Shown here: in pieces, positions 893 through 35,217 of the stretch
Position numbering within the stretch: position 1 is the stretch's first letter
How the letters are laid out: each line of letters begins with the position of its first letter
Assembly: GCA_017473745.1 (NCBI GenBank)
Contig: JAFUJP010000065.1
Location: forward strand, 1 to 35,217
DNA length: 35,217 nt
Direction: 5' to 3'
DNA from: Oscillospiraceae bacterium
GTDB taxonomy: Bacteria > Bacillota > Clostridia > Oscillospirales > Ruminococcaceae
Made by a program: the position numbers and the translations under genes
The notes under the pieces: model-generated
The model's input: only the letters and a program-made list of their open reading frames with translations
The model's database searches: none
Told to the model about the DNA's origin: nothing

Positions 893-931
893 TTTGAGCA
901 CGGGGTGAAATTATTCCGTGCTCAAATATTT
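893..931 (+). terminator. Intrinsic terminator of the sortase gene
   Basis: 11-bp perfect stem (TTTGAGCACGG at 893-903, complement at 916-926) with a 12-nt loop and a following TATTTTT. Both arms contain the octamer TTGAGCAC/GTGCTCAA that is iterated in the window. Confidence 0.85.
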
Positions 932-987
932 TTGTAATAATTGCCGCTTTTCTTGGAAAAATATCCGGGAAAGGCGGCGTTTTATAT

Positions 988-2376
988 ATGAATATATCAA
1001 CGGATATTGAAAAGAATAAACTGCATTTTGATGCGATTTTTTGTACCGAACGCAATTTTGACCTGAAGAAAAGGGAACTTTCTTTCGCGGGGAAATCCGC
1101 AGTTCTTTATATGATAGACGGCTTTTTGCGAAGCGACGTTCTTGAAAGGATACTTGCGGAATTCACTTTTCTGAAAGAGGGAGATGCCGATTCGGAAAAG
1201 GAATTTCTTGAGCACCATATTCCTTTCGGCGGGGTCGAAACCGAAAGCGACGACAACATGATAGTAACCGCCGTGCTCAGCGGAAGAACGGCGCTTATGG
1301 TCGATGGTTTTTCTTCCGCTTTTATTTTTGAACTGCGAAACTATCCCCAGCGGGATAATGCCGAGCCGGACCGCGATAAGGTCATGCGCGGTTCAAGGGA
1401 TGGATTTACGGAAACGATGCTTTTTAATGCGGCGCTTATACGCCGCAGGATCCGCGACAGGGATCTGAGTATTGAGTATCAGAATATCGGAACAGTTTCG
1501 CGAACGGATATAGCGCTTTGCTATTTGAGCACGAAGGTTGACGGGGCGATGCTCAAAGACGTCCGAGAAAAAATACGGTGCTCAAAAATCGAAGCCCTTA
1601 CCATGAATCAGGAGGATCTTGCCAACGTAATCAACGGAAAACAGCGCTGGAACCCGTTTCCCAAGTATAAATTCACCGAACGCCCGGACGTTGCCGCTGC
1701 GCAGATCATGAAGGGCGATCTTATCGTGCTCATAGATAACACCCCGACGGCAATGATAATGCCTTCGACCATTTTTGATATAGCCGAGGATGCGAACGAT
1801 TATTATTTTCCGCCGCTTACGGGGGCTTATCTTCGCATAACGCGGCTTCTTACAATGCTGGTCACTCTGTTTGTAACGCCTGTCTGGATGCTTGCGCTGG
1901 AATATCCGGAATACGTTCCGGAAGCATTCAGGTTTGTGCTTGTGACGGAAAATCAGAATATCCCGATAATATGGCAGCTTCTGATACTGGAATTTGTTAT
2001 AGACGGGCTCAAACTTTCATCACTTAACACGCCGGGAATGCTTTCTTCGACCTTCTCTATAATCGCAGGGATCATTGTCAGCGATTTTGCCGTTCAAAGC
2101 GGGTGGTTCGCTTCCGAAACGATGCTTTATATGGCTTTTGTGGCTATGGCGAATTATAGCCAGCCCGGTTATGAGCTTGGATACGCCATCAAATTTATGA
2201 GGATGTTTATGCTTATCGGAACGGCGATTTTTGGGATTTTTGGCTTTGCTGCGGGGATTTTGCTTACCCTTTATCTCATTCTTACAACAAAAATCCACGG
2301 CAAAAAGGGATATTTTTCTCCGATAATTCCTTTCTCACCCAAAGGAATCGTTCAGCTTCTTTTCAGACTTAAATAA
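988..2376 (+). CDS. spoVAF: SpoVAF/GerA-family spore germination protein
   Basis: 462-residue member of the GerA A-subunit family, which sits in the inner spore membrane and takes part in nutrient or Ca-DPA triggered germination. The N-terminal cytosolic half carries the family block with NYPQRDNAEPDRDKVMRGSR around residues 117-136 and FTERPDVAAAQIMKGDL near 230. The C-terminal half has about five membrane segments (roughly 285-445). The C-terminal IPFSPKGIVQLLFR block resembles the remembered B. subtilis SpoVAF end more than GerAA. The usual spoVAA-AE neighbours are absent; here the gene stands alone between a sortase and an O-acylation pair. Three copies of the iterated octamer lie at 1209, 1525 and 1578. 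The choice between SpoVAF and another GerA paralogue is not firm. Confidence 0.82.
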   Translation: MNISTDIEKNKLHFDAIFCTERNFDLKKRELSFAGKSAVLYMIDGFLRSDVLERILAEFTFLKEGDADSEKEFLEHHIPFGGVETESDDNMIVTAVLSGRTALMVDGFSSAFIFELRNYPQRDNAEPDRDKVMRGSRDGFTETMLFNAALIRRRIRDRDLSIEYQNIGTVSRTDIALCYLSTKVDGAMLKDVREKIRCSKIEALTMNQEDLANVINGKQRWNPFPKYKFTERPDVAAAQIMKGDLIVLIDNTPTAMIMPSTIFDIAEDANDYYFPPLTGAYLRITRLLTMLVTLFVTPVWMLALEYPEYVPEAFRFVLVTENQNIPIIWQLLILEFVIDGLKLSSLNTPGMLSSTFSIIAGIIVSDFAVQSGWFASETMLYMAFVAMANYSQPGYELGYAIKFMRMFMLIGTAIFGIFGFAAGILLTLYLILTTKIHGKKGYFSPIIPFSPKGIVQLLFRLK

Positions 2377-2429
2377 AATGCTTTTTCGGAATATTTTTAT
2401 TACGGAATTATTAAAAAGCAAGAATTATA

Positions 2430-2458
2430 TTGAAATAACATTAAAAATAAGGTATTAT
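2430..2458 (+). promoter_or_regulatory. Sigma-A-type promoter for the MBOAT operon
   Basis: TTGAAA at 2430-2435 and TATTAT at 2453-2458 with a 17-nt spacer, in an AT-rich gap and 79 nt before the MBOAT start. Confidence 0.65.
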
Positions 2459-2537: not shown

Positions 2538-3938
2538 ATGGTATTCGCAAACTTGTTTTTTCTTTATGCATTTTTGCCGCTTAACCTGATACTCTATTTT
2601 TCGACTAAAAACAGGGCATTCAGAAATGCGGTGCTCATTTTCTTCTCGCTGTTTTTCTATGCGTGGGGCGAACCCGTTTGGGTCACTCTTCTTATTTTCA
2701 GCGCGACGATAGACTATTTCCACGGCTTGATAATTGAAAAATACCGCGGAAAAATCGGCGCAAAGCTTGCGCTTATATCTTCGCTTGTGCTGAACCTCGG
2801 GCTTCTCGGAATTTTCAAATACAGCGGATTCTTTGTGGAAAACATTAATTTGCTTACGGGGCTCGATCTTCCGGTTCCGGCGTTTTCACTTCCCATCGGT
2901 ATAAGCTTCTATACTTTCCAGACCCTCAGCTATACCATCGACGTTTACCGTGATGAAGTAAAACCGCAGCACAGCTATATGAAATTTTTCATGTATGTTT
3001 CGCTTTATTCCCAGCTTGTTGCCGGCCCGATAGTCCGTTATGCAGACGTGGCAATAGAAGTTGACGAAAGACACGAAAATCTCGAGGATATCTATTCCGG
3101 CACCGCAAGATTCCTCGTCGGCCTTACCAAAAAGGTTTTTATCGCAAACGTTGCGGGACAATTTGCCGAAACCTATCTTATGGGAGATTTGACAAAACAA
3201 AGCACTGCCGCCGTTTGGTTCGGCGTTCTTATGTTCTCGATACAGATTTACTACGACTTTTCCGGTTATTCCGATATGGCCATCGGCCTTGGAAAAATAT
3301 TCGGGTTCCACTTCCTCGAAAACTTCAACTATCCTTATATTGCCCGTTCCGCAACGGAATTCTGGCGCAGATGGCATATGTCATTGGGCGGGTTCTTCCG
3401 TGATTACGTCTATATTCCCCTCGGCGGCAACAGAAAACATCAGTATCTCAATCTTTTCATCGTCTGGTTCCTCACCGGTTTCTGGCACGGAGCAAGCTGG
3501 AACTTCATCATCTGGGGCCTTTGGTTCGGGGTTCTTATCATCATCGAAAAACTCTTCCTTCTCAAATGGCTTAAAAAGCTCCCGGTTATCTCGAACATCT
3601 ATCTTCTTTTTATCGCCGTTATGGGCTGGGTAATGTTCTATTTCGAGGATATGGGAAGAATGTTCGATTGCTTTGCGGTTATGTTCGGCGCAAAAGGCAC
3701 CGGATTCTGGGATATATCCCTCGAACTTACCCTTCTCAATAACATTTTCTGGATCATTCTTGCTGTGGCGTTCTGTATGCCAATTGTTCCTTCGGTCAAG
3801 AAATTCATTGAAAACCATCCGAAGGTACAGATGCCTGCAAAAATTCTTCAGATCCCGGCAAACGCAGTTATGCTTATAGTCAACACTTCTCTTCTTGTCG
3901 GCATGAGCTATAACCCGTTCCTTTATTACAAATTCTAA
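2538..3938 (+). CDS. MBOAT-family O-acyltransferase (AlgI/DltB-like)
   Basis: 466-residue polytopic membrane protein of the membrane-bound O-acyltransferase family, which moves acyl groups (usually acetyl) across the membrane to surface glycans. Family marks are FSLPIGISFYTFQTLSY near 116-132, the conserved EFWRRWHMSLG (His280) and FLTGFWHGASWNFIIWG with the putative catalytic His317. About ten or eleven hydrophobic segments are visible. Length and motif spacing match AlgI/PatA-type proteins. Eighteen nucleotides downstream is a DHHW protein, the usual extracytoplasmic partner that completes transfer, so the two likely act as a pair. No polysaccharide polymerase or glycosyltransferase lies nearby, so the acceptor is unknown. 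Confidence 0.92.
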   Translation: MVFANLFFLYAFLPLNLILYFSTKNRAFRNAVLIFFSLFFYAWGEPVWVTLLIFSATIDYFHGLIIEKYRGKIGAKLALISSLVLNLGLLGIFKYSGFFVENINLLTGLDLPVPAFSLPIGISFYTFQTLSYTIDVYRDEVKPQHSYMKFFMYVSLYSQLVAGPIVRYADVAIEVDERHENLEDIYSGTARFLVGLTKKVFIANVAGQFAETYLMGDLTKQSTAAVWFGVLMFSIQIYYDFSGYSDMAIGLGKIFGFHFLENFNYPYIARSATEFWRRWHMSLGGFFRDYVYIPLGGNRKHQYLNLFIVWFLTGFWHGASWNFIIWGLWFGVLIIIEKLFLLKWLKKLPVISNIYLLFIAVMGWVMFYFEDMGRMFDCFAVMFGAKGTGFWDISLELTLLNNIFWIILAVAFCMPIVPSVKKFIENHPKVQMPAKILQIPANAVMLIVNTSLLVGMSYNPFLYYKF

Positions 3939-5420: not shown

Positions 5421-6791
5421 ATGGAAAAGAAGCTTTTGATAAAAGAAAACAGTTTTATCGAAACCGAAATAACCGCTGTCACAAACGAGGGCAGCGGTGT
5501 TTCGCGTTATGAAGGAATGGTGGTTTTCACTCCGTTTGCCGCCCCGGGCGACGGCGCAAGGGTGAAAATCGCAAAAGTAGGGAAGAATTGTATCTATGGC
5601 GAGCTTGACAAGGTGTTAAGACCTTCCGTTGACAGAATAGAGCCGGATTGCGAAGTTTTTGGTCAATGCGGGGGGTGTTCTCTCCGTCATATCAGATATG
5701 ATGCGGAGCTTTATGAAAAGACCCATTGGGTGAAAGATCATATTCAGCGCATAGGCGGATTCGACATCGAGCCTTTCCCGGCGATAGGTTCTCCGAAAAT
5801 CGAAGGATACCGCAACAAAGCCATTTATCAGGTTGGCAGGGGCGAAAAAGGCGAGCCGGTTTTCGGTTTTTACAGACATAAAAGCCACGAGGTCATCGAC
5901 TGTAAAAACTGCCGCCTTCAGCCGAAAGAATTTGCGGATATTCTTACGGCAATCGGCTTTTTTGTGAAGCAGAACAAAATTTCCATCTATGACGAAAAGA
6001 CCCACAGCGGGCTCCTTCGTGCAGTTTATATCAGAAAAGGTGAAATCACCGATGAGATCGGCGTTTGCCTTGTGCTCAACGGGGATAAACTTCCGGGAGA
6101 AAAACTCCTCGTTTCTCTGTTGAGCACGCAGTTCAAAAATATTGTGAGCATCGTGCTCAACACCAACAAAGAACGCACAAACGTGGTGCTCGGCAAAAAA
6201 AGCCGCACCGTTTTCGGCAAGGACGGAATCACCGACGTTCTTTGCGGGGTGACGGTTGATATCTCTCCGGCGGCATTTTATCAGGTGAACCACGGCGGCG
6301 CCGAAAAACTTTACGGCGTTGCGGCGGAATTTGCAGGGCTTTCCGGCGGGGAACTTATCCTTGACCTTTATTGCGGAGCCGGAACTATCGGCCTTTCCAT
6401 GGCGAAAAAGGCCGGAAGCCTCATAGGTGTTGAAATCGTTCCGGAAGCAATAGAAAATGCAAAGATAAACGCCGCACGAATGGGTGTGACCAATGCGGAA
6501 TTCATCTGCGGAGATGCCGGTACGGCCGCCGAGGAGCTTCAGGAACGCGGCCTTGCCCCGGATGTCATAATTCTTGATCCGCCGCGCAAAGGCTGTTCTG
6601 AGGACACTCTCGAAGCTGTTGCGGCAATGAAACCGAAGAGAGTTGTCTATGTTTCCTGCAACACCGCCACCATGGCGCGGGATTTCAAAATCCTTGATTC
6701 TCTTGGCTATAAGCCCGAAAAAGTTCAGTCGGTGGATATGTTCCCGAGAACCGCCCACGTTGAGGGAGTGGGGCTGCTTGTGAGAAAATAA
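5421..6791 (+). CDS. rlmD: 23S rRNA (uracil-5-)-methyltransferase, RlmD/RlmCD type, with TRAM domain
   Basis: 456-residue SAM-dependent RNA methyltransferase. The N-terminal TRAM domain covers about 10-66. The [4Fe-4S] ligands are Cys77, Cys83 and Cys86 (GQCGGC) plus Cys161 (or 164). SAM site: LDLYCGAGTIGLS (314-326). Catalytic DPPRKGC (386-392) and VSCNTATMARD with nucleophile Cys413. All hallmark residues are present, so it should make m5U in 23S rRNA. Its ATG abuts the stop of the DHHW gene, suggesting translational coupling inside the same operon. Three octamer copies lie at 6072, 6120 and 6153. A second paralogue is encoded at 31938-33209. Confidence 0.95.
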   Translation: MEKKLLIKENSFIETEITAVTNEGSGVSRYEGMVVFTPFAAPGDGARVKIAKVGKNCIYGELDKVLRPSVDRIEPDCEVFGQCGGCSLRHIRYDAELYEKTHWVKDHIQRIGGFDIEPFPAIGSPKIEGYRNKAIYQVGRGEKGEPVFGFYRHKSHEVIDCKNCRLQPKEFADILTAIGFFVKQNKISIYDEKTHSGLLRAVYIRKGEITDEIGVCLVLNGDKLPGEKLLVSLLSTQFKNIVSIVLNTNKERTNVVLGKKSRTVFGKDGITDVLCGVTVDISPAAFYQVNHGGAEKLYGVAAEFAGLSGGELILDLYCGAGTIGLSMAKKAGSLIGVEIVPEAIENAKINAARMGVTNAEFICGDAGTAAEELQERGLAPDVIILDPPRKGCSEDTLEAVAAMKPKRVVYVSCNTATMARDFKILDSLGYKPEKVQSVDMFPRTAHVEGVGLLVRK

Positions 6792-10493: not shown

Positions 10494-10511
10494 AAAAATC
10501 CGACATGATGA

Positions 10512-10540
10512 TTGACAGTAAAAAACAAGAATGTTATAAT
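10512..10540 (+). promoter_or_regulatory. Consensus sigma-A promoter for the small lipoprotein gene
   Basis: TTGACA at 10512-10517, 17-nt spacer, TATAAT at 10535-10540: a perfect consensus pair. The predicted transcript start falls at about 10547, immediately before a perfect GC hairpin (CCTGCC at 10548-10553, GGCAGG at 10557-10562). Confidence 0.9.
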
Positions 10541-10599
10541 GCAAATACCTGCCGAAGGCAGGATAAGCGATAATAAACAAGCGAAAAGGAGTGTTTCCA

Positions 10600-11043
10600 A
10601 TGAAAAAAATATTAGTTTTTTTGATGGCGGTTATGCTGTTATGTTCGTTTGCTGCCTGTGCTGCAGAAGAGGAACAGCCGGTTGATTATACAACTTTTTG
10701 CGGAAATTATTCCGATACCGAAACGGTTGAAGGACCGTGCTATACTGTAAGCATCGTAAGCGTTAATAACGAAACGAAAGAAATTGAACTTTCGGTATCC
10801 TACGTCGGCGTAAACTCTTCGCCTGTATATGCGACGGATCCTATTCACGCTTCCATCGCAGACGATAACACTGTGGATTTTGAATGGAAGGATTCCTGGA
10901 GCAACAAAGGCACCGGCACCCTTGTTCTGAATCCGGAAGATCCTTCGACAGTGGAAATTTTGATGACCGTGACCGAAGAAGCAGAAGTTAACCGTGCATC
11001 ACTTTCGACCGGAGACCAGTATGTGACACTTAATCGTCGCTAA
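10600..11043 (+). CDS. Small secreted lipoprotein of unknown function
   Basis: 147 residues from the ATG at 10600 with AAGGAG at 10586-10591 (8-nt spacing). The signal peptide ends in the lipobox SFAAC, so the mature protein starts at a lipidated Cys. The mature part is acidic and appears all-beta, beginning around TTFCGNYSDTETVEG. It contains a second and third Cys that may form a disulfide. I recognise no family. A perfect consensus promoter and a 5' hairpin suggest strong, stable expression. It is monocistronic, ending before the terminator at 11125-11156. Confidence 0.8.
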   Translation: MKKILVFLMAVMLLCSFAACAAEEEQPVDYTTFCGNYSDTETVEGPCYTVSIVSVNNETKEIELSVSYVGVNSSPVYATDPIHASIADDNTVDFEWKDSWSNKGTGTLVLNPEDPSTVEILMTVTEEAEVNRASLSTGDQYVTLNRR

Positions 11044-11073
11044 TAATCAAAAAAGAGAGCAAGATTAAAAGAT

Positions 11074-11112
11074 GCTTTTAATGCAAAGGCTGTTGCCGCT
11101 GCATTAAAAAGC
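11074..11112 (+). other. Long hairpin downstream of the small lipoprotein gene
   Basis: GCTTTTAATGCA at 11074-11085 pairs with TGCATTAAAAAGC at 11100-11112, with one extra base in the right arm. No T tract follows, so it is more likely a transcript 3'-end protector or processing site than a terminator. The true terminator lies 13 nt further on. Confidence 0.5.
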
Positions 11113-11124
11113 GGGCGGATTTTT

Positions 11125-11156
11125 AGGCGTACTTCGTAAGGAAGTAAGCCTTTTTA
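11125..11156 (+). terminator. Intrinsic terminator of the small lipoprotein gene
   Basis: AGGC-g-TACTTC at 11125-11135 pairs with GAAGTA-a-GCCT at 11141-11151 around a 5-nt loop, followed by TTTTT. Confidence 0.75.
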
Positions 11157-11270
11157 TATACTTTTTTTCAGACAGTGAAAAAACAGCCGGACCGAAAAAG
11201 CAAATTGAAAACCGTTTCCGCCCATTTTCAATGTGGGAGGGGCATTGGTTCAGCCGTTTTTAAGAGATAT
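11157..11270. other. Gap between converging transcripts
   Basis: No gene seen. It contains an 8-bp inverted repeat (ATTGAAAA at 11204-11211, TTTTCAAT at 11225-11232) that may act as a second minus-strand stop signal. Nothing else is recognisable. Confidence 0.4.
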
Positions 11271-11301
11271 AAAAAAGGTGTGCTTCTTTACGAAGCACAC
11301 C
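11271..11301 (-). terminator. Intrinsic terminator of the EamA gene (minus strand)
   Basis: A 10-bp perfect stem (GGTGTGCTTC at 11277-11286, GAAGCACACC at 11292-11301) with a 5-nt loop, followed on the minus strand by six T (11276-11271). Confidence 0.88.
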
Positions 11302-11324
11302 CAAAGGCAGGATTTTGTGATATA

Positions 11325-12194
11325 TCATTTTTTTTGTGACATTTCGTTCCAAAGCGTAAAACCGAGAATTAAAATTCCCCCCAGAAGCTGGATAAAAGTC
11401 ATTTCTTCGCCAAGAAGCGTTACGGAAATTACAACAGCAACAAGCGGGTCGATATAGCTTAAAATGGCCGCTTCCTGGCCGGGAAGCTCCTTCAGTGACG
11501 AAAAATAAAGGCAATAGGCAAAGCCTGTATGGAAAAGCCCCACGGTGAGAAGATTTGCCCAGCCGAATGGTTCGAGCGAGCCGAGGCTTGTTCCGCCGGC
11601 GGCGGCAACATAGGGGATAAGAACGGCAATGGCGGCAATAAACTGCAAAAGAGTGCGGTGGATGCCTTCAACCTTTTTGATGAATTTGTTCATAAGAATT
11701 ACCGAAGCATAAAAAACGGCAGCCCCAAGCCCTAAAAGGATACCTATAAAATCATTCCCGCCGGAAGAACCGCCTGTTCCGGTTATGAGCACGATGCCGA
11801 TCGTTGACATAACAAAACAGATTATCTGTTTTGCCGAAAGCCTTTCGTGGAACAGAAGAGGGCAAACCGCCGTTACGATAACGGGCGCAAAATAATAGCT
11901 CAATGTCGCGGCGGAAACGGTTGTATATTTATATGCTTCAAAAAGCAGTATCCAGTTTATGCCCATGGCTCCGCCGGAAAGAAGCAAAAGGGGTATATCT
12001 TTTTTTATTTCGCCGAAAGGTATTTTTTGTTTGGTCAAAAGCAGAAACAAAATTATAAGCGCCGCCGCCATTATCGCCCGATAAAGAGCGAGTTCACCGG
12101 AGGATACGGAGATATTTCTGACAAAGGGAGCAAGGGTCCCGAAAATCGCCATGGCGGAAATAAAAGAAAAACGTGCTTTTTTGGATGCTTTCAA
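11325..12194 (-). CDS. EamA/DMT-superfamily permease
   Basis: 289 residues from a TTG start at 12194, preceded by AAAGGGGGCG. A longer in-frame GTG start at 12236 is rejected because the -10 box (12233-12228) falls inside that extension. Ten hydrophobic helices form two EamA repeats of about 140 residues each. Repeat-end features such as AILSYIDPLVAVVISVTLLGE and STIGIVLITGTGG are typical of the RhaT/YdcZ-like drug/metabolite exporters. The substrate is unknown. It is a single-gene unit with its own promoter and terminator on the minus strand. Confidence 0.88.
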   Translation of the reverse strand: MKASKKARFSFISAMAIFGTLAPFVRNISVSSGELALYRAIMAAALIILFLLLTKQKIPFGEIKKDIPLLLLSGGAMGINWILLFEAYKYTTVSAATLSYYFAPVIVTAVCPLLFHERLSAKQIICFVMSTIGIVLITGTGGSSGGNDFIGILLGLGAAVFYASVILMNKFIKKVEGIHRTLLQFIAAIAVLIPYVAAAGGTSLGSLEPFGWANLLTVGLFHTGFAYCLYFSSLKELPGQEAAILSYIDPLVAVVISVTLLGEEMTFIQLLGGILILGFTLWNEMSQKK

Positions 12195-12227
12195 AAGTTT
12201 CGCCCCCTTTTTGAAAAATATAACAAA

Positions 12228-12256
12228 AATATACACCAGTCAGCGGGTGATGTCAA
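12228..12256 (-). promoter_or_regulatory. Sigma-A promoter of the EamA gene (minus strand)
   Basis: On the minus strand TTGACA (12256-12251), 17-nt spacer, TATATT (12233-12228). The -35 box directly abuts the T tract of the upstream ABC gene terminator, a very compact junction. Confidence 0.85.
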
Positions 12257-12257
12257 T

Positions 12258-12283
12258 AAAAAAGGCGCACATATAAGTGCGCC
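12258..12283 (-). terminator. Intrinsic terminator of the XRE-ABC operon (minus strand)
   Basis: GGCGCAC at 12264-12270 pairs with GTGCGCC at 12277-12283 around a 6-nt loop; on the minus strand six T follow (12263-12258). Confidence 0.85.
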
Positions 12284-12321
12284 CATATTGCAAATGCAGC
12301 AAACGGTGGTTCCACGAAAAA

Positions 12322-13926: not shown

Positions 13927-13929
13927 TAA

Positions 13930-14769
13930 TTATTCCTCCGGTCTATGGAAATATGGTTTTGTTCGGGTGTCGGAACCGAGAAAATTGATTTGGGTATCTT
14001 CAAGGATGCATCTTGCAAGGTAAAGGAAAGGGATATACGAACAGCCGATGCTGGGGCCGTATATTTTTGAAAGTCCGCCGATTGTGCCGAAATCCGTTGA
14101 ATAGACAAGATGACATTCCTGCATCTTTTCAAGGGTTTCTTCAATTTCCGCAGTATCGGCGGAAAGTTTTTGAGCAAGAAGTTCCGAAGTGAAAAGACGG
14201 GTGTTTTCGCTTAAAAGAAATTCAAGCATTTCGAGAACGTGCGGCATGGAAAGAACTCCGAAGAATTTTCGATAGGCTTCCTTATCCGCGAAATAAGCGT
14301 TATAGCCTTTTTCGGGCTTCGGGCAGATTGCGGAAAAAGACATATCCTCCGCATTTACACCGAAATAGTTTCCGCCGTCGGTGCTGTGGTATGAATTTAT
14401 AAGACAGCCGAAATCGTCTTCGCATTTTTCGACATATTCCATAGCGACAAAATTGTTTGCGCCGATGGCGGAAAAAACAAGGCGGTTGAGCTTTTCGTGG
14501 ATATGTTCTTTGGGAACGGTTGCCGCCCATTTTTTTATTTCTTCATTTATATCGGTGACTTCGCCGCCTTCGCGCCCGAAAAGCGCATCGACGGTAACGC
14601 CGAGCCTGTCTGCAATTGCGGGAAGAAGGGCGACATCCGGCGCGCCGCCGCATTCCCAGCGGGAAACAGCCTGGGTGCTTACTCCGACCGCTTTGCCAAG
14701 CTCTTCCTGGGTGAGGCCTGCGGCCTTGCGGAATTTGGTTATCTGATTGCCGATTATATTGTTATCCAT
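13930..14769 (-). CDS. XRE-type HTH regulator with C-terminal winged-helix-like segment
   Basis: 279 residues. An HTH_3 domain covers about 8-64, with the recognition core VGVSTQAVSRWECGG and VTVDALFG. Next comes an unassigned region (about 75-170), then a segment (LLSENTRLFTSELLAQKLSA...) resembling a small winged helix. The C-terminus is rich in aromatic residues and Cys. It leads the operon with the ABC exporter, the common arrangement in which a regulator senses a ligand and controls its own exporter. A CAAG/CTTG dyad overlaps its promoter and may be the autoregulatory operator. The ligand is unknown. Confidence 0.85.
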   Translation of the reverse strand: MDNNIIGNQITKFRKAAGLTQEELGKAVGVSTQAVSRWECGGAPDVALLPAIADRLGVTVDALFGREGGEVTDINEEIKKWAATVPKEHIHEKLNRLVFSAIGANNFVAMEYVEKCEDDFGCLINSYHSTDGGNYFGVNAEDMSFSAICPKPEKGYNAYFADKEAYRKFFGVLSMPHVLEMLEFLLSENTRLFTSELLAQKLSADTAEIEETLEKMQECHLVYSTDFGTIGGLSKIYGPSIGCSYIPFLYLARCILEDTQINFLGSDTRTKPYFHRPEE

Positions 14770-14814
14770 TTGAATACCTCCGTAAAGAATGAAATGACGT
14801 CGTTTTCAATCTAT

Positions 14815-14849
14815 ACTTGTATTTTATCACAAGGTAAACTTGAATTCAA
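14815..14849 (-). promoter_or_regulatory. Promoter and candidate operator of the XRE-ABC operon
   Basis: On the minus strand TTGAAT (14849-14844), 17-nt spacer, TAAAAT (14826-14821). A dyad CAAG-N5-CTTG lies at 14830-14842 between the boxes. A further ACTTGT at 14815-14820 faces ACAAGGT at 14829-14835. An HTH_3 dimer could bind here; this is inference from symmetry and position only. Confidence 0.55.
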
Positions 14850-14895
14850 CGCATAGAATTTTGATAAAAATCAAGTAATATTTGAATTTACCGAT

Positions 14896-14924
14896 AAAAA
14901 AAACAGCGGGAGCAATACTCCCGC
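14896..14924 (-). terminator. Intrinsic terminator of the VanY-type gene (minus strand)
   Basis: GCGGGAG at 14906-14912 pairs with CTCCCGC at 14918-14924 around a 5-nt loop; on the minus strand a run of eight T (14903-14896) follows two bases later. Confidence 0.9.
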
Positions 14925-16536: not shown

Positions 16537-18287
16537 GAATAGTCATAGGCGAAGGTTCCTGTGGGATTGCCGCCGGAGCCTCAAAAATCCGCAGCGCAAT
16601 CGAGAACCTTTTGTGTAAAGGCGAAAACCTTTCCATCGGTACGACCGGTTGCATAGGTATGTGTTTTCTTGAACCCATCGTGGATATCTATGAAGGCAAA
16701 AAGCTTTTAAAAAGGCTTGTAAAAGTCGGTGAGAAGGATGCAAAAGCCATTGTTGATGCGGTTCGAACGGGGGATTTTTCGGGCGTTGATTACATAACGA
16801 TTTCGGCCGAGGATGAACAATTTCTTGAAAAACAGACAAGGATAGCCCTTCGCCATTGCGGAATAATCGATCCTACTTCGATAGAGGATTATTGTGCTTT
16901 TGGCGGATACGGCGCTTTTGAAAAAACGATCAAAACAATGACCCCGGAAGAGGTAATTGAAGAAATAAAAATTTCGGGTCTTGCGGGCAGAGGGGGCGCG
17001 GGATTCCCCACATGGTTCAAATGGAACGCCGCAAAAAACAGCAGGACCGAAGGGAAAAAGTATCTTATATGCAATGCGGACGAAGGCGACCCGGGTGCTT
17101 TTATGGACAGAGCGGTTATTGAATCCGACCCGCACGGGCTTATTGAAGGTATGCTCATCGGCGCATACGCCATCGGTGCGGCGGAAATGACGGTATATGT
17201 TCGGGCGGAATACCCCCTTGCCATAAAGCACCTTGAAGAAGCCATAAAGCAGGCGAAAAATCATAATCTGCTCGGCGAAAATATACTCGGAACGGATTTT
17301 TCCTGCGAAATGAGCATAAAGGCCGGCGCAGGGGCGTTTGTCTGCGGAGAAGAAACCGCCCTTATAGAATCTCTTGAGGGGCGGCGGGGAATGCCGCGGC
17401 TCAAGCCGCCGTTCCCGGCGCAAAGCGGATATATGGGCGAACCTTCGAACATAAACAACGTCGAAACCTTTGCCAATGTTCCGTGGATAATAGAAAAAGG
17501 CGGCGCCGCTTTTGCCGCCATGGGAACGGAAAACAGCAAAGGCACGAAAGTTTTTGCCCTTACGGGGAAAATAAAAAAAGGCGGCCTTGTCGAAATACCG
17601 ATGGGCAAAACTCTTCGTGAAGTTATTTTTGAAATAGGCGGCGGCATCCGCGAGGGTAAAAAGATAAAGGCCGTTCAGCTTGGCGGGCCTTCCGGCGGGT
17701 GTATTCCGGCGGAGCTTCTTGATACTGTGATAGATTACAATGCTCTTGCACAAACAGGGGCGATTATGGGTTCCGGCGGAATGGTTGTTATGGATGAAAG
17801 CACCTGTATGGTGGGTATGGCAAAATTTTTTCTTGATTTCACAGCAAATGAATCCTGCGGAAAATGCGTTCATTGCCGCATAGGTACAAAACGCATGCAG
17901 GAAATACTTACCCGTATTGTTAAAGGCGAAGGAAGAAAAGGCGACGTTGAACTTCTTGAAGAGCTTTGCGAAGCCGTGAAAGAGGGTTCACTTTGCGGAT
18001 TGGGACAGACAGCACCAAACCCGGTGCTCACGACTATCCGCTATTTCAGAAACGAATATGATGCTCATATAAATGAAAAACGATGCCCTGCAAAAGAATG
18101 TTCGGCATTGCTTACATATTCGGTCGATGCGAAAAAATGTGTTGGATGCACCCTTTGCGCAAGAAAATGCCCCGCAAAGGCCATAAGCGGTGAAATTAAA
18201 AAGCCGCATTTTATAAACCAAGCGATTTGCATAAAATGCGGACAATGCGAAAAATCCTGCCGCTTTGGGGCAATTTCTGTAAGATAA
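16533..18287 (+). CDS. NuoF-like NADH/FMN subunit (HndC/StnB-type) with extra Fe-S domains
   Basis: 584 residues. An N-terminal thioredoxin-like Fe-S domain (Cys10, Cys28, Cys40, Cys44) comes first. The NuoF core has the NADH/FMN loop GRGGAGFPTW at 152-161, CNADEGDPGAFMDR at 180-193 and the [4Fe-4S] ligands Cys442, 445, 448 and 488. A C-terminal two-cluster ferredoxin domain has ligands 536/539/542/546 and 566/569/572/576. In bifurcating enzymes this subunit oxidises or reduces NAD(H) at an FMN. No [FeFe] hydrogenase partner is present, so a label of NADP-reducing hydrogenase subunit would mislead. Context favours the Stn transhydrogenase. Confidence 0.94.
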   Translation: MRIVIGEGSCGIAAGASKIRSAIENLLCKGENLSIGTTGCIGMCFLEPIVDIYEGKKLLKRLVKVGEKDAKAIVDAVRTGDFSGVDYITISAEDEQFLEKQTRIALRHCGIIDPTSIEDYCAFGGYGAFEKTIKTMTPEEVIEEIKISGLAGRGGAGFPTWFKWNAAKNSRTEGKKYLICNADEGDPGAFMDRAVIESDPHGLIEGMLIGAYAIGAAEMTVYVRAEYPLAIKHLEEAIKQAKNHNLLGENILGTDFSCEMSIKAGAGAFVCGEETALIESLEGRRGMPRLKPPFPAQSGYMGEPSNINNVETFANVPWIIEKGGAAFAAMGTENSKGTKVFALTGKIKKGGLVEIPMGKTLREVIFEIGGGIREGKKIKAVQLGGPSGGCIPAELLDTVIDYNALAQTGAIMGSGGMVVMDESTCMVGMAKFFLDFTANESCGKCVHCRIGTKRMQEILTRIVKGEGRKGDVELLEELCEAVKEGSLCGLGQTAPNPVLTTIRYFRNEYDAHINEKRCPAKECSALLTYSVDAKKCVGCTLCARKCPAKAISGEIKKPHFINQAICIKCGQCEKSCRFGAISVR

Positions 18288-18299
18288 GGAGGCGACGGT

Positions 18300-20330
18300 A
18301 TGGGTGAAATAAAAATCACCGTAAACGGCAAAGAGATGATCGGAAAAAGCGGCGATACTATACTCAATATCGCCGCAGAAAACGGTATTGAAATTCCGAA
18401 TCTTTGCTATAACAAAAATCTTAAAATATACGGTGCCTGCGGCCTTTGCCTTGTGGAAATCGAAGGTGCGGCAAAACTTTTCCGCGCCTGTGCAACGGCC
18501 GCCGAAAACGGGATGGTTATAAAAACCGATACCGAAAGGGTTCGGCGTGCAAGAAAGGTTGCCCTTGAACTTATTATGAGCGATCATTTCGGCGACTGTA
18601 AGGCGCCTTGTCATCTGAACTGCCCGGCGCATACGGATATACAGGGATACCTTAAACAAATCGCTCTCGGCAACGACAAAGAGGCCGTGAGAATAATCAA
18701 AGAAAAGATCCCCATTCCGGCCTCCATCGGAAGAATATGTCCACACCCATGCGAAAGCCATTGCAGAAGAAGGCTTGTTGAAGAACCGCTTTCAATAGCT
18801 TATCTTAAAGCCTTTGCGGCGGATAATGATCTTGCTTCGGAAGATCCCTATAAACCCGCAAAAGCGAAGCCGACCGGAAAGAAAATCTCAATAATCGGCG
18901 GCGGCCCTGCGGGGCTTTCGGCAGCATACTATCTCTGTCTTGGGGGACATTCTGTCACAGTTTATGACGCAATGCCCGAAATGGGAGGAATGCTTCGCTA
19001 CGGTATTCCGGAATACCGCCTTCCGAAGGCGGTGCTCAGAAAAGAGATTTCTGCCATCGAAGAACTCGGCGTTGTTATGAAAAACGGTATAAAAATCGGC
19101 AAAGATATAGGATTCGATGAAATCAGGGCGGATTTTGATGCGGTTCTTATTGCAGCGGGAGCATGGAGCAGCAGTAAAATTGGCTGTAAAGGCGAAGAGC
19201 TTAACGGAGTTATCGGAGGCATAGACTTCCTCAGAAAGGTCAATTTGGGGGAAATTCCGGATATCGGTAAAAGCGTTGCGGTTATCGGCGGGGGGAATAC
19301 CGCCATGGATGCCTGCCGCACGGCAATAAGATGCGGCGCAGAAAAGGTTTATGTTATCTATCGCCGCACAAGGGCGGAAGCCCCCGCGGAGGATATCGAA
19401 ATTGAAGAAGCCATCGAAGAGGGTGTCGAGTTCAGATTCCTCACAAATCCGGCGGAAATCATCGGCGAAAACGGAAAAGTAAAGGCCCTGAAACTGCAGG
19501 TAATGGAACTCGGCGAACCGGATGCTTCCGGAAGAAGAAAGCCGGTTCCTGTTGAAGGAAAGTTTGAAATCCTCGAAGCGGATACGGTTATCTCCGCCAT
19601 CGGCCAGAAATACGATGGCACAGGATTCGATTCGGTTGCGCTTACAGACCGGGGAACGATTTTTGCGGATGAAAATAGCTGTATGACGAATCTTGAAGGC
19701 GTTTTTGCTGCAGGCGACGCAACAAACGGCGGAGCATCCATCGCCATAAAAGCCATTGCGGAAGCAAATCTTGCCGCAAAGGCGATGGAAGCTTATCTTG
19801 ACGGTCTGCCTGTGGATTTCAAAAAACCCTATTATTCCGAAAAAAAGATGACCGAAAAGGATTTTGCGGATAAAGAAAAAATCCCGCGGGCAAAAATGCC
19901 GGTGAAATCCCCCGAAGCAAGAAAGCGTAATTTTGATTCCGTCATAGATGGATTTACTGATGAGCAGGCAAGGGCAGAGGCAAAACGATGCCTTGAATGC
20001 GGCTGCCATGATTATCCGGATTGCAGGCTTATCCGTTATGCAAACGAGCGGCCCATTGAACCACAAAGGTTTGCGGGTGAGATTCACGAAAGTTTTGTTG
20101 AAAGAAAGCTTGTTTCCATCGAAAGGGATCAGGGCAAGTGCATACTTTGCAATCTTTGCGTAAGAACCTGCTCCGAAGAAGCGAAAAAAGGCATACTCGG
20201 CCTTGTGGGGCGCGGTTTCAAAACCGTTATAAAGCCGGAATTTGACGATTCTAATACAACGGAATTCTGTAAAACCTGCCGCAGATGCGCTGATATATGC
20301 CCGACCGGTGCGCTTGAAATAATTGAATAA
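18300..20330 (+). CDS. NfnB/GltD-like FAD oxidoreductase fused to NuoG-type and ferredoxin Fe-S domains (candidate StnA)
   Basis: 676 residues. A NuoG/HydA-type [2Fe-2S] domain is at 1-78 (Cys36, 47, 50, 64). A GltD/NfnB N-terminal cysteine region follows (Cys100, 104, 108, 147, 151, 155). The FAD site GGGPAGL is at 200-206, and the second dinucleotide site IGGGNTAMDA at 329-338 probably holds NADP(H). A linker carries four Cys (564-575). A C-terminal 2[4Fe-4S] ferredoxin domain (614-624 and 657-667) ends the protein. The fusion replaces the H-cluster domain of soluble bifurcating hydrogenases with an NfnB module. That matches the Sporomusa-type Nfn (Stn) described from Sporomusa ovata, which couples NADH, NADPH and ferredoxin. 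A GGAGGCGA ribosome site precedes the ATG. Confidence 0.9.
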   Translation: MGEIKITVNGKEMIGKSGDTILNIAAENGIEIPNLCYNKNLKIYGACGLCLVEIEGAAKLFRACATAAENGMVIKTDTERVRRARKVALELIMSDHFGDCKAPCHLNCPAHTDIQGYLKQIALGNDKEAVRIIKEKIPIPASIGRICPHPCESHCRRRLVEEPLSIAYLKAFAADNDLASEDPYKPAKAKPTGKKISIIGGGPAGLSAAYYLCLGGHSVTVYDAMPEMGGMLRYGIPEYRLPKAVLRKEISAIEELGVVMKNGIKIGKDIGFDEIRADFDAVLIAAGAWSSSKIGCKGEELNGVIGGIDFLRKVNLGEIPDIGKSVAVIGGGNTAMDACRTAIRCGAEKVYVIYRRTRAEAPAEDIEIEEAIEEGVEFRFLTNPAEIIGENGKVKALKLQVMELGEPDASGRRKPVPVEGKFEILEADTVISAIGQKYDGTGFDSVALTDRGTIFADENSCMTNLEGVFAAGDATNGGASIAIKAIAEANLAAKAMEAYLDGLPVDFKKPYYSEKKMTEKDFADKEKIPRAKMPVKSPEARKRNFDSVIDGFTDEQARAEAKRCLECGCHDYPDCRLIRYANERPIEPQRFAGEIHESFVERKLVSIERDQGKCILCNLCVRTCSEEAKKGILGLVGRGFKTVIKPEFDDSNTTEFCKTCRRCADICPTGALEIIE

Positions 20331-20333
20331 AAA

Positions 20334-20368: not shown

Positions 20369-20399
20369 ATGATAAATTGACCACAGCTTTTATTTTTAC

Positions 20400-24453: not shown

Positions 24454-25323
24454 ATGCGTGAACTTGTTTTCAATATAGCCGATGAGCACGACGGAAAACA
24501 GGCGTATCATTATCTTCGATATTGCGAGCATTTTTCCTATGCTCTTATCGTGAAAATGCGCCATACGGAAAATTCGCTTTTGCTCGATGGGGTGCCCATA
24601 CGCACCATCGACAGGATAAAAGCCGGTTCGGTGCTCAAAGCCTATATACCGGATTCGGAAAGCTTCTTTACGCCGAATCCGGAACTCGAAATAACGGTGC
24701 TTTACGAGGATGAGGATATCGTCGTTTTTGATAAGCCGGTGCATATGCCGGTGCATCCTTCAAAAAATCACCAGACGGATACCGTTGCAAATTACTGTGC
24801 CGCACGTTACGGGAATGCGAAATTCCACGTTGTTGGGCGCCTTGATATGGATACTTCGGGCATAATCGTTGTGGGAAGACATTCCCATTCCGCGGCGGTG
24901 CTCACAAAAAACGGCGGTGAAAAAGAATATATCGCCATAGTGGAAGGCGTGCCGGAAGAACCTTGCGGGATCATTGATGCGCCTATTGACGACAGCGATC
25001 CGCTGGTGCATAAAAGCTTCATTGCACCCACAGGGCAGCCCTCCGTGACCGAGTACGAAACCATTGCATCAAACGGCGTGCTCACGGCGGTGCGGGTGCG
25101 CCCGAAAACCGGAAGGACCCACCAGATAAGGGTGCATTTCGCACATATTGGGCATCCTCTTTGCGGCGATGAGCTTTACGGCGGAAGCCCTGAGCACATA
25201 GACCGCCAGGCTTTGCACAGGAACAAAATGAAATTTGAGCACCCAATAACCGGCACCGTGCTCGAATTTGAAAGCCCGTTTCCGAAGGATATGCAGAAGC
25301 TTTTTGACGAAATAACAAAATAA
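24454..25323 (+). CDS. RluA-family pseudouridine synthase
   Basis: 289 residues. The catalytic motif VGRLDMDTSG (Asp131) and the downstream RPKTGRTHQIRVHFAHIGHPLCGDELYG identify the RluA family, which isomerises uridine in rRNA or tRNA. The region before the catalytic domain is too degenerate to call an S4 domain with confidence. The exact target (RluC/RluD/TruC type) cannot be set by eye. Two octamer copies (24631, 25235) and several 7-mer variants fall in the gene. It stands alone between two strong terminators. Confidence 0.92.
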   Translation: MRELVFNIADEHDGKQAYHYLRYCEHFSYALIVKMRHTENSLLLDGVPIRTIDRIKAGSVLKAYIPDSESFFTPNPELEITVLYEDEDIVVFDKPVHMPVHPSKNHQTDTVANYCAARYGNAKFHVVGRLDMDTSGIIVVGRHSHSAAVLTKNGGEKEYIAIVEGVPEEPCGIIDAPIDDSDPLVHKSFIAPTGQPSVTEYETIASNGVLTAVRVRPKTGRTHQIRVHFAHIGHPLCGDELYGGSPEHIDRQALHRNKMKFEHPITGTVLEFESPFPKDMQKLFDEITK

Positions 25324-29184: not shown

Positions 29185-30033
29185 TTGAAAAAGACCGGGT
29201 TGGTTCTCGAAGGCGGGGGAATGCGAGGAATATATACCGCCGGGGTTCTTGATGTTTTTATGGAACACGGGCTTCACTTTGACGGAGTCATCGGCGTTTC
29301 CGCGGGGGCTATTCACGGTTGTTCGTTCCTTTCAAATCAAAAGGGGAGAAGTATCCGTTATTATAAGAAATACTGTTCGGACTGGCGTTTTATGAGCATG
29401 AAAAGCTGGCTTCTCACCGGCGACGTGGTGGGCGAAAAATTCTGTTATCACGATATCCCCGAAACGCTTGATCCCTATGACCATGAAGCTTTTGAAAAAT
29501 GTGAAACGCCTTTTTATGCGGTTTGCACCGATGTTGAAACCGGCAGGGCGGAATATTTTCATCTTGAGCACATGGATGAACAGATAGACAGCCTTCGGGC
29601 TTCGGCTTCACTGCCTTATTTTTCCCGCATGGTTGAAATCGGAGGAAGAAAATATCTCGACGGCGGATGTTCCGACAGTATTCCGGTGGAAGCATTTATG
29701 CGAATGGGTTTTGAACGCAATGTCGTCGTGCTCACCCAGGCGGCGGGTTACCGCAAAAAGCCGCAGTCTCCGGCGCTTGCAAAGCTGGTTTACAGAAAGT
29801 ATCCGAAATTTGCCGAAACACTTATAAACCGTCACGTTATGTATAACGCCACCCTTGAAAAAATAGAGGAACTTGAAAAAGAGGGTAAAATTTTCGTGAT
29901 TCGGCCCGAATCGCCGCCGGAAATCGGAAGGCTTGAAAACGATCCCGAAAAGATAGAGCGGGTCTATAATATGGGCAGAAAAAACGCCGAAGAATGTATC
30001 GAAAATCTGAAAAAGTGGCTTTCGGAAAAATAA
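29185..30033 (+). CDS. Patatin-like phospholipase
   Basis: 282 residues. The oxyanion loop EGGGMRGIYTAG (9-20), the nucleophile elbow GVSAG with Ser39, and Asp159 in YLDGG complete the Ser-Asp dyad of patatin-type lipid acyl hydrolases. TTG start at 29185 behind GAAGGCGAG. No signal peptide, so probably cytosolic or membrane-peripheral. It matches the YjjU-like group of bacterial patatins. One octamer copy lies at 29564. Single-gene unit with its own terminator. Confidence 0.94.
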   Translation: MKKTGLVLEGGGMRGIYTAGVLDVFMEHGLHFDGVIGVSAGAIHGCSFLSNQKGRSIRYYKKYCSDWRFMSMKSWLLTGDVVGEKFCYHDIPETLDPYDHEAFEKCETPFYAVCTDVETGRAEYFHLEHMDEQIDSLRASASLPYFSRMVEIGGRKYLDGGCSDSIPVEAFMRMGFERNVVVLTQAAGYRKKPQSPALAKLVYRKYPKFAETLINRHVMYNATLEKIEELEKEGKIFVIRPESPPEIGRLENDPEKIERVYNMGRKNAEECIENLKKWLSEK

Positions 30034-33302: not shown

Positions 33303-33352
33303 TTCCGTTTTGGAATTTTTTTGATTTGCTGAAAAAATTTTTTATAAAACAG

Positions 33353-33381
33353 TTGATTTTACGTTCGTAAAATGTTAGAAT
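33353..33381 (+). promoter_or_regulatory. Promoter of vanW-dltA with an embedded dyad operator
   Basis: TTGATT at 33353-33358, 17-nt spacer, TAGAAT at 33376-33381. The spacer is filled by ATTTTACG-TT-CGTAAAAT (33356-33373), an 18-bp inverted repeat with a 2-nt centre. A dimeric regulator bound there would block the polymerase. Confidence 0.75.
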
Positions 33382-33420
33382 GTTGTCGAAAACAAATCAA
33401 CCTGTAAAGGGGTGGCAAAA

Positions 33421-34251
33421 TTGGGAAGAAAGCTTTTTTGTGACATAAACCCAACCTGCTATAAAATATCGGTGGCAAAAGAAACCGCCCTGCGCAATAT
33501 AAAGGATTTTTTAAGCGCCGAAAAAATCGCGAAGGAGAAGAAGGCGGAGCTTCTTCCGAATATAGTTAAAAGCCACAGCTCGATACTTATAAGGCATCTT
33601 GAAGGCGTTGATATGCGCCTTCAGCAAAACAAGGTGACTAACATTCGTCTTGCCGCGGAAAAAATAAACGGAAGCATAATAAAACCCGGCGAAATTTTTT
33701 CTTTTTGGCATACCGTTGGAAAAACGACCGAAAAAGAAGGTTATAAAGAAGGCCTTGTGATACACAGGGGCGGTAAGCTTGGCGCCGATATCGCCGGCGG
33801 CCTTTGCCAGATGGCAAATATGGTGCATTGGCTCGTGCTCAACAGCCCGCTTACGGTTACGGAACTTCATCATCATTCCGATGCGCTTTTTCCGGATGAC
33901 AGAAGAAGAGTGCCTTTCGGAACGGGCACTTCGGTCGTCAACAATTATGTCGATTACCGCTTTAAAAATAACACCGATTTTGCCGTGCAGATATGTGCAT
34001 GGATAGAGGACGGCGAGCTTTGCGGAGAGCTTCGCAGTGAAAGACCTTTCCCTTGCCGCTATCGCCTTATTGAAGAAAACCATCACTATCGAAAAGAGGG
34101 AGAGCGATATTACCGCATTTCTCAGGTTTATCGCCTTGTTATTGAAAAAGAAAGCGGCGCCCAGATTCGCAAGGAGCTTATCCTCGATAACCATTCCCTT
34201 GTTATGTATGACCATGGCCTTATTCCCCCGGAACAGATTAGAGATGATTGA
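33421..34251 (+). CDS. vanW: VanW-family protein
   Basis: 276 residues from a TTG at 33421, placed 8 nt after AAGGGG (33407-33412); the GTG at 33412 has no ribosome site of its own. The core has the VanW signature IIKPGEIFSFWHTVGKTTEKEGYKEG-like region, GADIAGGLCQMANMVHWL and VTELHHHSDALFPD. VanW accompanies some vanB clusters but its function is unknown, and chromosomal copies are common in Clostridia. Here the next gene, a DltA-like ligase, begins directly after its stop codon, suggesting a cell-envelope role. Confidence 0.9.
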   Translation: MGRKLFCDINPTCYKISVAKETALRNIKDFLSAEKIAKEKKAELLPNIVKSHSSILIRHLEGVDMRLQQNKVTNIRLAAEKINGSIIKPGEIFSFWHTVGKTTEKEGYKEGLVIHRGGKLGADIAGGLCQMANMVHWLVLNSPLTVTELHHHSDALFPDDRRRVPFGTGTSVVNNYVDYRFKNNTDFAVQICAWIEDGELCGELRSERPFPCRYRLIEENHHYRKEGERYYRISQVYRLVIEKESGAQIRKELILDNHSLVMYDHGLIPPEQIRDD

Positions 34252-35217
34252 ATGATTTTTGAAATTGAAAAGCTTGCCGAAAAATTCGGCGAAAGAACGG
34301 CATATATTTCGGACGGCGAGCACGCGGATTTTGCGGAGCTTTTTGACCGTGCTCAAAAAACAGCAGCAAAAATCAGCGGCGGGGATAATTCACCGGTTGT
34401 TGTTTTGGGGAGCAGAAGCACCGAAATGATGGCGGCGATCCTCGGCTGCATTATTGCCAAAAGAGCTTACGTTCCGATAGATTCCTCCATGCCGGAAGAA
34501 CGGAAGGATAAAATAATCGCCGCTTCGGGTGCGGGGATAATCATTGACTGCGGCGGAAAGAACGCAGTGATCCGCAGAACGGAAAACAGTGCTCAAAACT
34601 CGGGCGAAAACGATACCGCATATATAATTTTTACATCCGGAAGCACGGGCGAGCCGAAAGGCGTGCCGATTTCGTATGAAAATCTTGATAATTTTATCGG
34701 ATGGATAACCTCACTTGAACCGCTGAACGAATTTGAGCACGCAAGGGTGCTCAATCATGCAGCGTTCAGCTTTGATTTGAGCACCGCCGCGATATTTCTT
34801 GCGATTTTTGGCGGCCATGCCATTGTTCAGCTTGAAGGTACCGAGAATCTTGAAAGCGTTTTTAATACCATAAGCGAAAATAAAACGGAAATAATTGTTG
34901 CAACGCCGACTTTTTTGCGGCTTTGCCTTATTGATAAGGAATTCTGCGGAACAAAATTCCCCTTTATTAAATGCGTTTATTTTTGCGGAGAGCCGCTTCA
35001 AAAATCCCTTTGCAAAGGGATTTTTGAAAGGTTCCCCGATATCAGAATAATTAACGCCTATGGCCCGACGGAGGCGACAAGCGCCGTTTGCGCCATCGAA
35101 ATAACGAAAGAAAGCCTTGAGCACGAAGAAATTTTGCCTTGCGGCAAAATTTCTTCCGCCGCGGCGGAAATCGTCATCGAAGCTGACGAGATCGTGCTCA
35201 AAGGGAAGAGCGTTTTC
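34252..35217 (+). CDS. dltA: DltA-like D-alanine-activating adenylation enzyme (3' end beyond the window)
   Basis: The ATG at 34252 follows the vanW stop directly; 322 codons are open to the window edge of an expected total of about 500. The AMP-binding P-loop IIFTSGSTGEPKGV (about residues 125-138) and NAYGPTEAT (about 267-275) mark the ANL superfamily. ENLDNFIGWI and FCGEPL resemble DltA, which loads D-Ala onto a carrier protein for teichoic acid esterification. A DltB/MBOAT-like protein is encoded at 2538 but pairs with a DHHW protein instead. The gene holds seven octamer copies and several perfect palindromes (34276-34290, 34997-35028, 35125-35156, 35154-35169). It could instead be another amino acid adenylation enzyme. 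Confidence 0.82.
   Translation, partial: MIFEIEKLAEKFGERTAYISDGEHADFAELFDRAQKTAAKISGGDNSPVVVLGSRSTEMMAAILGCIIAKRAYVPIDSSMPEERKDKIIAASGAGIIIDCGGKNAVIRRTENSAQNSGENDTAYIIFTSGSTGEPKGVPISYENLDNFIGWITSLEPLNEFEHARVLNHAAFSFDLSTAAIFLAIFGGHAIVQLEGTENLESVFNTISENKTEIIVATPTFLRLCLIDKEFCGTKFPFIKCVYFCGEPLQKSLCKGIFERFPDIRIINAYGPTEATSAVCAIEITKESLEHEEILPCGKISSAAAEIVIEADEIVLKGKSVF
34349..35201. repeat. Dense cluster of the octamer TTGAGCAC/GTGCTCAA
   Basis: Seven exact copies in 853 bp at 34349, 34589, 34733, 34747, 34777, 35117 and 35194, in both orientations and in all reading frames of the DltA-like gene. About twelve more copies lie elsewhere in the window (894, 918, 1209, 1525, 1578, 6072, 6120, 6153, 24631, 25235, 29564, 33835). 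Confidence 0.85.
34997..35028. repeat. 32-bp perfect palindrome inside the DltA-like gene
   Basis: TTCAAAAATCCCTTTG at 34997-35012 is followed directly by its exact reverse complement (35013-35028). The encoded segment aligns to the remembered DltA sequence without a gap, so it is not an insertion into the protein. Confidence 0.9.

Follow-up and report, generated by a model that had tools for sequence, protein, structure and literature searches.

Short words that recur far more often than expected along bacterial DNA raise the question of what maintains them. The question is posed here by a window of 35,217 nucleotides (contig JAFUJP010000065.1, assembly GCA_017473745.1) from an Oscillospiraceae bacterium placed in the Ruminococcaceae, in which the octamer TTGAGCAC is iterated on both strands. 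An earlier note on this window listed 19 copies in balanced orientation and likened them to DNA uptake sequences or to the HIP1 word of cyanobacteria. All 19 copies are present, 9 on the forward and 10 on the reverse strand, with one start shifted by a base (1208, not 1209); 0.78 copies are expected from 100 dinucleotide shuffles, the largest of which gave 4. The over-representation is larger than had been stated: rather than falling near expectation, the genome-wide count reaches 549 in 2,245,667 bases (255 and 294 in the two orientations, summed over 208 unordered, unoriented contigs), compared with 11 (5 + 6) for the reversed word used as a control. The better unit is the heptamer TGAGCAC, here called the strong site, with CGAGCAC and TGAGCAT as weak forms. 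In 295.6 kb of the source genome, including the window, TGAGCAC is the top 7-mer (142 copies, where a third-order Markov model predicts 15), TGAGCACG is the top 8-mer (74 versus 2.7), and TGAGCAC is flanked preferentially by T or A on the 5' side and by G or C on the 3' side. It is likewise the top 7-mer in the related genomes G154 and G198, at 9-12 times the Markov expectation across the three genomes, and strong sites occur at a density of about 0.5 per kb. The window holds 30 of them; the gap proposed between about 6.2 and 24.6 kb stands for the octamer but not for the 7-mer, which occurs there three times (11786, 18024 and 19032).

The sites are clustered and follow the turn of the double helix. 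In the source genome, G154 and G198, pairs less than 60 bp apart are 8-18 times commoner than random, depending on the orientation class, and 244 of the 363 strong sites have another strong site within 260 bp. Within arrays, spacings keep to the B-DNA turn as far as about 260 bp in all three relative orientations; those between sites on the same strand concentrate near 21, 31-33, 42 and 52-53 bp. When 233 pairs no more than 300 bp apart were fitted jointly, the helical repeat came to 10.545 bp (bootstrap standard deviation 0.013) and the mean phase to 0.57, with a fitted offset of 0.73 bp bringing the three orientations into agreement. Since one repeat and one offset describe the three orientations, sites within an array tend to share one helical face, near the G4-C5 step of TGAGCAC, and to turn it in one direction, whatever the orientation of the word, to a distance of about 260 bp. 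Up to 260 bp the phasing is significant in each genome alone (p = 2e-15, 3e-11 and 3e-7 for the source genome, G154 and G198, respectively). It remains strong at 110-160 bp (R 0.67, n = 30) and 160-260 bp (R 0.52, n = 64) and is weak at 260-400 bp (0.26). Adjacent pairs alone (157 pairs) have a mean cosine of 0.59 versus at most 0.22 in 2000 site-level jitters, and the phasing score of TGAGCAC is the highest among 7-mers with 150-700 copies, as also among those with 100-700 copies. The weak forms are enriched within 100 bp of strong sites (9.2-fold for CGAGCAC, 5.7-fold for TGAGCAT) and share the phase (R 0.52-0.65). A second set of 155 pairs, from 77 loci that were selected in named genomes through a hairpin made of the word and that possibly overlap the genomes already sampled, gave a repeat of 10.542 bp (standard deviation 0.024) and a mean cosine of 0.42; three loci from other phyla (L207, L228, L275) and the pairs inside the anchor hairpin were set aside before these counts.

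A repeat near 10.5 bp is that of B-DNA in solution. Its use as proof of relaxed or extracellular DNA was withdrawn, since writhe absorbs much of the strain in plectonemic DNA, and the value does not serve here to tell supercoiled from relaxed DNA. The mean spacing between arrays is about 5.7 kb. Their pair correlation is quasi-regular, but simulation gave P = 0.095 (coefficient of variation 0.64 versus 0.74, 83 spacings), and for this reason no even spacing is claimed. Among other phased words are AGGGGAG, CCTTCCC and CCGTTCC, for which the related longer words examined fall in interspersed repeats. Interspersed palindromic repeats of the forms GTAGGGGCG...CGCCC and CGGAACGGTCA...CCGTTCCCTAC occur in intergenic-looking positions on several contigs of the source genome (L033, L034, L036, L038, L040, L042, L047).

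The excess arises at the level of DNA. When synonymous codons were shuffled within genes of the source genome, a mean of 16.9 copies was obtained (maximum 23 in 20 shuffles) against 117 seen; the corresponding figures are 6.0 against 57 in G154 and 17.2 against 41 in G061. Equal enrichment is thus not found when the codon context is kept, and the claim that protein sequence does not explain the copies is borne out; shuffled words were represented in these comparisons by the reversed word, the Markov expectations and the synonymous shuffles. Codon usage or protein sequence was rejected as the cause on these grounds and on the phasing of spacings that are not multiples of three (R 0.70, n = 28). 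The sites are also conserved. In 12 relatives of the window locus, with 78-81% identity over the main match, strong sites of the window persist in 101 of 186 site-by-species cases versus 110 of 531 for control words, of which 19 were chosen, 14 having aligned copies and 5 none; retention of the control words is uneven, one word being kept in 41 of 158 cases, for instance, and another in none of 24.

The gene context was determined for 782.6 kb from the source genome, G154 and G198, using a second, still crude gene call. Coding sequences contain 299 of the 363 strong sites (0.45 per kb), convergent gaps 32 (1.93 per kb), tandem gaps 25 (0.42 per kb) and divergent gaps 4 (0.18 per kb), and 3 lie at edges. 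A promoter regulon was rejected, since sites are scarce in divergent gaps. Inverted pairs of the word occur in convergent gaps and elsewhere; those at gene ends look, by their sequence alone, re-used as terminators. The DNA uptake sequences (DUS) and uptake signal sequences (USS) of Neisseriaceae and Pasteurellaceae are described as forming inverted pairs at gene ends in like manner (PMC1852404). This trait, with the excess in tail-to-tail gaps and the density of strong sites, makes the word resemble an uptake sequence.

Within the samples made, arrays of the word are restricted to one genus. The octamer is present in all 15 genomes of the genus that were searched, with 202-549 copies each versus 0-12 for the reversed word. 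In a family sample all 197 genomes, three of them from the genus, match the octamer, and no other genus pairs such a density with so low a control. The word hairpin is found in named genomes at no fewer than 80 loci; among the matches listed, 77 lie in metagenome-assembled genomes titled Oscillospiraceae or Clostridia, mostly from ruminant gut samples, and 3 single ones in other phyla. In samples of 45-100 kb each from four other genera (G025, G053, G095, G032), the word is found at 1.4-2.5 times and is not top-ranked. These samples gave no other strongly phased word, but they are small, and related dialects may exist in these genera; they contain 7 strong pairs up to 110 bp and, with weak forms, 40 pairs of mean cosine 0.12 (p 0.14).

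Arrays are also carried by phage DNA. Contig C100 of the source genome (L045 and L371) has a prophage-like region with a tyrosine-recombinase-like gene (below the curated cut-off), a terminase match and a RecE-like exonuclease present in 1 of the 15 genus genomes, and C110 (L046) is a phage contig with a portal match. Together, C100 (from 2.2 kb) and C110 contain 18 strong sites that form 35 pairs with a mean cosine of 0.65. Two terminase-bearing contigs of the source genome carry arrays with a cosine of at least 0.78 in 8 of 9 pairs. In the virus record G210 (127.7 kb), strong sites number 44, versus 10 for the control, and 27 pairs lie up to 300 bp apart, versus about 4 expected (mean cosine 0.33, p 0.009). 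The 53-kb record G209 has 23 sites at the relative spacing of one G210 end, and the two are therefore counted as one virus; between them they match terminase, portal, integrase, primase-helicase and DNA polymerase families. Its arrays suggest that this virus is linked to the genus. The hairpin scan of virus contigs returned 78 loci, mostly at chance-like density, of which L346 and L348 (G210 and G209) were analysed and L404 is among the other loci at host-like GC. No portal relatives were found in viral contigs; 16 distant exonuclease relatives have 7 sites in total versus 5 for the reversed word, and neither PF04860 nor PF03354 was found in the 15 genus genomes. As side observations, C100 has an open frame of 3397 residues, and the IMG/VR records G210 and G209 (L391-L395) describe a large phage that encodes a DNA polymerase, a primase-helicase and a ribonucleotide reductase. 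On C192 and C180 of the source genome (L462, L463) lie two pairs of terminase small and large subunits that are related to each other, one pair adjoining an XRE/S24-type repressor-like gene.

The sites of the window are collected in Table 1. The gene names spoVAF, rlmD, rluA and dltA used in the earlier note agree with Pfam matches to a GerA-type germination protein, a TrmA-type RNA methyltransferase, a pseudouridine synthase and an AMP-binding enzyme, respectively. Two sites found in the source genome alone, 1526 and 1578, differ from the relatives by several bases, with residue changes.

Table 1. Strong (TGAGCAC) and weak sites in the window, with strands and retention in aligned relatives; 0/0, no aligned counterpart in the fetched relatives
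Feature	Positions	Strong sites	Weak sites	Retention in relatives	Remarks
Inverted pair in terminator-like hairpin after sortase gene	895..924	895+, 918-		895 in 6/12, 918 in 5/12; several relatives without any hairpin	23 bp centre to centre; in phase
Array in GerA-type (spoVAF-like) gene	1209..1732	1209+, 1273-, 1526+, 1578-, 1726-	1549-	1273 in 11/12, 1209 in 5/12; 1526, 1578, 1726 in 0/12	
Single site	2631..2637	2631-		0/12	
Array in rlmD	6072..6192	6072-, 6121+, 6153-	6145+, 6186-	all three strong sites in 12/12	third positions nearby vary
Single site	11786..11792	11786+		0/0	
Single sites	18024..19038	18024-, 19032-	18061-	0/0	18024/18061 out of phase (cos -1.0)
Array in rluA	24483..25264	24483+, 24631-, 24898-, 25078-, 25191+, 25236+	25258-	strong sites in order: 5, 7, 6, 5, 2, 4 of 7	
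Sites in patatin-like gene	29393..29734	29565+, 29728-	29393+	0/0	
Array over VanW-like and dltA-like genes	33835..35200	33835-, 34349-, 34589-, 34734+, 34747-, 34778+, 35118+, 35194-	34317+	34778 in 3/3; others in 0-2 of 3	

Positions 10500-14900 and 15900-20400 of the window hold three single strong sites and have no aligned counterpart (blastn pieces >250 bp) in the eight relatives whose fetched stretches extend beyond them (G208, G198, G206, G205, G204, G154, G197, G203). Judged from their translations, the genes at 15900-20400 resemble subunits of NADH dehydrogenase or hydrogenase.

The geometry is most simply read as multivalent binding from one side. We give most weight to such binding as a means of holding or marking resident DNA, and place an uptake or packaging tag second. 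At about even odds, in our judgement, YGAGCAY is the unit of a putative double-strand DNA-binding protein, several units are bound from one side, and the arrays anchor or mark resident DNA. Such a protein would recognise YGAGCAY by its sequence, with TGAGCAC as the strong form, and would grip several units together from one side of straight B-DNA. The protein would be cooperative or held on a scaffold, its subunits sharing a support that may be an oligomer, a filament or a membrane, in the last case as a membrane-held receptor with freely turning heads; with subunits held in this way, the face of the helix would count and the orientation of each unit would not. The resident DNA would comprise the chromosome and the phages adapted to the host. 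More tentatively, the arrays could be a genome-wide DNA identity array of a new class, a phased word shared by the genus and its phages by which a surface-held multivalent receptor would hold resident DNA or admit linear self DNA without a pilus.

Several points weigh against this main reading. The binding protein is putative, being read from the pattern of the sequence, and the role itself is a guess, as an uptake or packaging tag would leave a similar pattern. The mean phase of the second set of pairs (0.42) is weaker than that of the first (0.57), and the p-values for pairs treat the pairs as independent. Single arrays are imperfectly phased: the nine pairs of the rlmD array are of mixed phase, two of them clearly out of phase, and both site pairs of the patatin-like gene are out of phase (cosine -0.37 and -0.45). 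Finally, G061, which belongs to the same genus by placement and has 61% GC and 217 strong sites in 590.9 kb, carries the word with mild clustering (25 pairs up to 110 bp versus 8.8 expected) but merely a trace of phase. Its strong sites gave R 0.07 up to 110 bp and R 0.20 for 43 pairs up to 260 bp (p 0.18); with weak forms the mean cosine is 0.16 (187 pairs, p 0.0008).

Among the alternatives, a self-DNA tag for import without a pilus is possible but rather doubtful. Linear DNA, for example from particles resembling gene transfer agents (GTAs), would be caught at the phased arrays by a membrane-held receptor and passed to ComEC, and molecular drive would spread the arrays. In its favour, the ComEC family PF03772 is matched over its cut-off in all 15 genomes, and 12 of them have a short ComEA-like protein of the HhH type (129 aa in the source genome), mostly without pilus ATPases. 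The pilus-type ATPase family PF00437 is matched in all 15 genomes and past its cut-off in 9. Above 33 bits it is matched in three, G061 (425), G204 (149, a PilT-family protein) and G201 (81), and in none of the other 12, the source genome included. In the source genome the family has two weak matches, one to a SpoIIIAA-like protein and one to a RecD2 helicase. G061 has two neighbouring pilus ATPase matches, of 425 and 160 bits (L156, L171, L314). A route without a pilus is conceivable, as packaging of the GTA type, with fragments of 4.6-8.9 kb, is reported to be prominent among Oscillospiraceae and Ruminococcaceae of the gut (PMC12946183) and recipients of RcGTA rely on ComEC (PMC10883770). 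Simultaneous binding of several uptake sequences is said to favour their clustering (PMC1939737). The mean array spacing of about 5.7 kb is a further point for this alternative. The phrog_2 terminase is found in 15 of 15 genus genomes and also in 11 of 14 control genomes; leaving G061 aside, its best match reaches at least 120 bits in 13 of the 14 genomes, and G154 has two 60-bit pieces. One terminase of the source genome lies with its small subunit beside a repressor-like gene in a prophage-like setting, which makes a domesticated agent no more likely than a common prophage. In G198:C23 and G199:C47 about 3 kb separate a terminase match from a protein of radical-SAM size that has an HhH match; elsewhere the two are on separate contigs. 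No specific receptor was identified for import of this kind, and the ComEA-like and ComEC proteins of the source genome fall below the NCBIfam full-protein cut-offs, ComEC passing those of Pfam and of its N-terminal domain. G061 has ComEC and ComEA yet no clear arrays, the large virus bears arrays that import of host DNA would not need, and the even spacing of arrays is not significant.

A self/non-self mark, in which a host nuclease or silencing system spares array-bearing DNA and phages copy the mark, is unlikely. The arrays in phage regions, including the prophage with the rare exonuclease gene, fit it, but no such system turned up, without a search aimed at defence genes, and a Chi-type reading on single strands would need no shared helical face. 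Still less probable is a HIP1-like or methylase-linked word, a site of the Chi type, or a by-product of codon use or mutation. HIP1 is likewise highly iterated and is described as associated with methyltransferases (PMC4390886), and the modest excess in other genera fits a codon or composition bias; the synonymous shuffles and the lack of a palindrome count against this explanation, which does not predict the phasing, seen also at spacings that are not multiples of three, and is hard to hold as the sole cause. A classical DNA uptake sequence served by type IV pili is the most unlikely of all: in 12 of 15 genomes no match to PF00437 exceeds 33 bits. The density of copies, the balance of strands and the gene-end inverted pairs are as in DUS/USS, and G204 and G201 have the matches named above, but G061, the genome best supplied with pilus genes, has no phased arrays.

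Like DUS/USS, the word has hundreds of copies per genome on both strands, many of them in genes, and terminator-like inverted pairs; unlike them, it has a 7-bp unit, helix-phased arrays, copies in phages and, in most genomes of the genus, no pilus motor. The uptake sequences of Neisseria and Haemophilus may have a hidden phasing of their own. HIP1 shares the high iteration of a short word and the restriction to a genus or phylum, but it is a palindrome, whereas TGAGCAC is not self-complementary, and we know of no phased arrays of HIP1. The likeness to uptake sequences and HIP1 drawn in the earlier note therefore survives as a DNA-level, strand-balanced, iterated word with several uptake-like traits, without the pilus or the palindrome; neither analogy predicts phasing to 260 bp or arrays in phages, and in this both fall short. 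Chi sites of RecBCD/AddAB are genome-wide short words that phages carry too, but they are directional and read on single strands, whereas TGAGCAC is balanced over unoriented contigs and phased on duplex DNA. The same counts bear on the strand polarity that marks KOPS/SRS words, and show balance over the 208 unordered contigs. Sites of Noc/SlmA-type anchors are far fewer in number, and no phased arrays of them are known to us. Scattered round the chromosome, such sequence-specific sites are described as tying DNA to the membrane, and they are longer than the 7-bp word, the Noc binding site (NBS) being 16 bp (PMC4331003, PMC8429893, PMC7468209). Cooperative regulators and nucleoid proteins also use several sites on one helical face. 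Their phased arrays, as far as we know, sit at few promoters or loci, whereas the arrays of this genus number hundreds and lie mostly inside genes.

The word is therefore real and conserved, a feature of the DNA of one genus that we cannot assign to a known family, since a defining feature is missing in each comparison, with DUS (the pilus), with HIP1 (the palindrome) and with a promoter regulon. In its working it may still resemble an uptake tag or a nucleoid anchor. To our knowledge, no iterated genome word is arranged in helix-phased arrays, and on this basis we hold the feature to be new in kind, with the DUS/USS genomes outside the comparison. Among mostly open-access papers, judged by the openings of their abstracts, neither this word nor a genome-wide set of phased arrays was found described, and one source describes sequence-specific uptake as an outlier of Neisseria and Haemophilus (PMC12040237). 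The helical repeat of DNA is here read from sequence alone with a bootstrap error near 0.1%, as a physical trace of DNA holding. The binder, once found, would establish either a new system of chromosome organisation or identity that bacteria share with their phages, or an exchange of DNA in Firmicutes that is specific to sequence.

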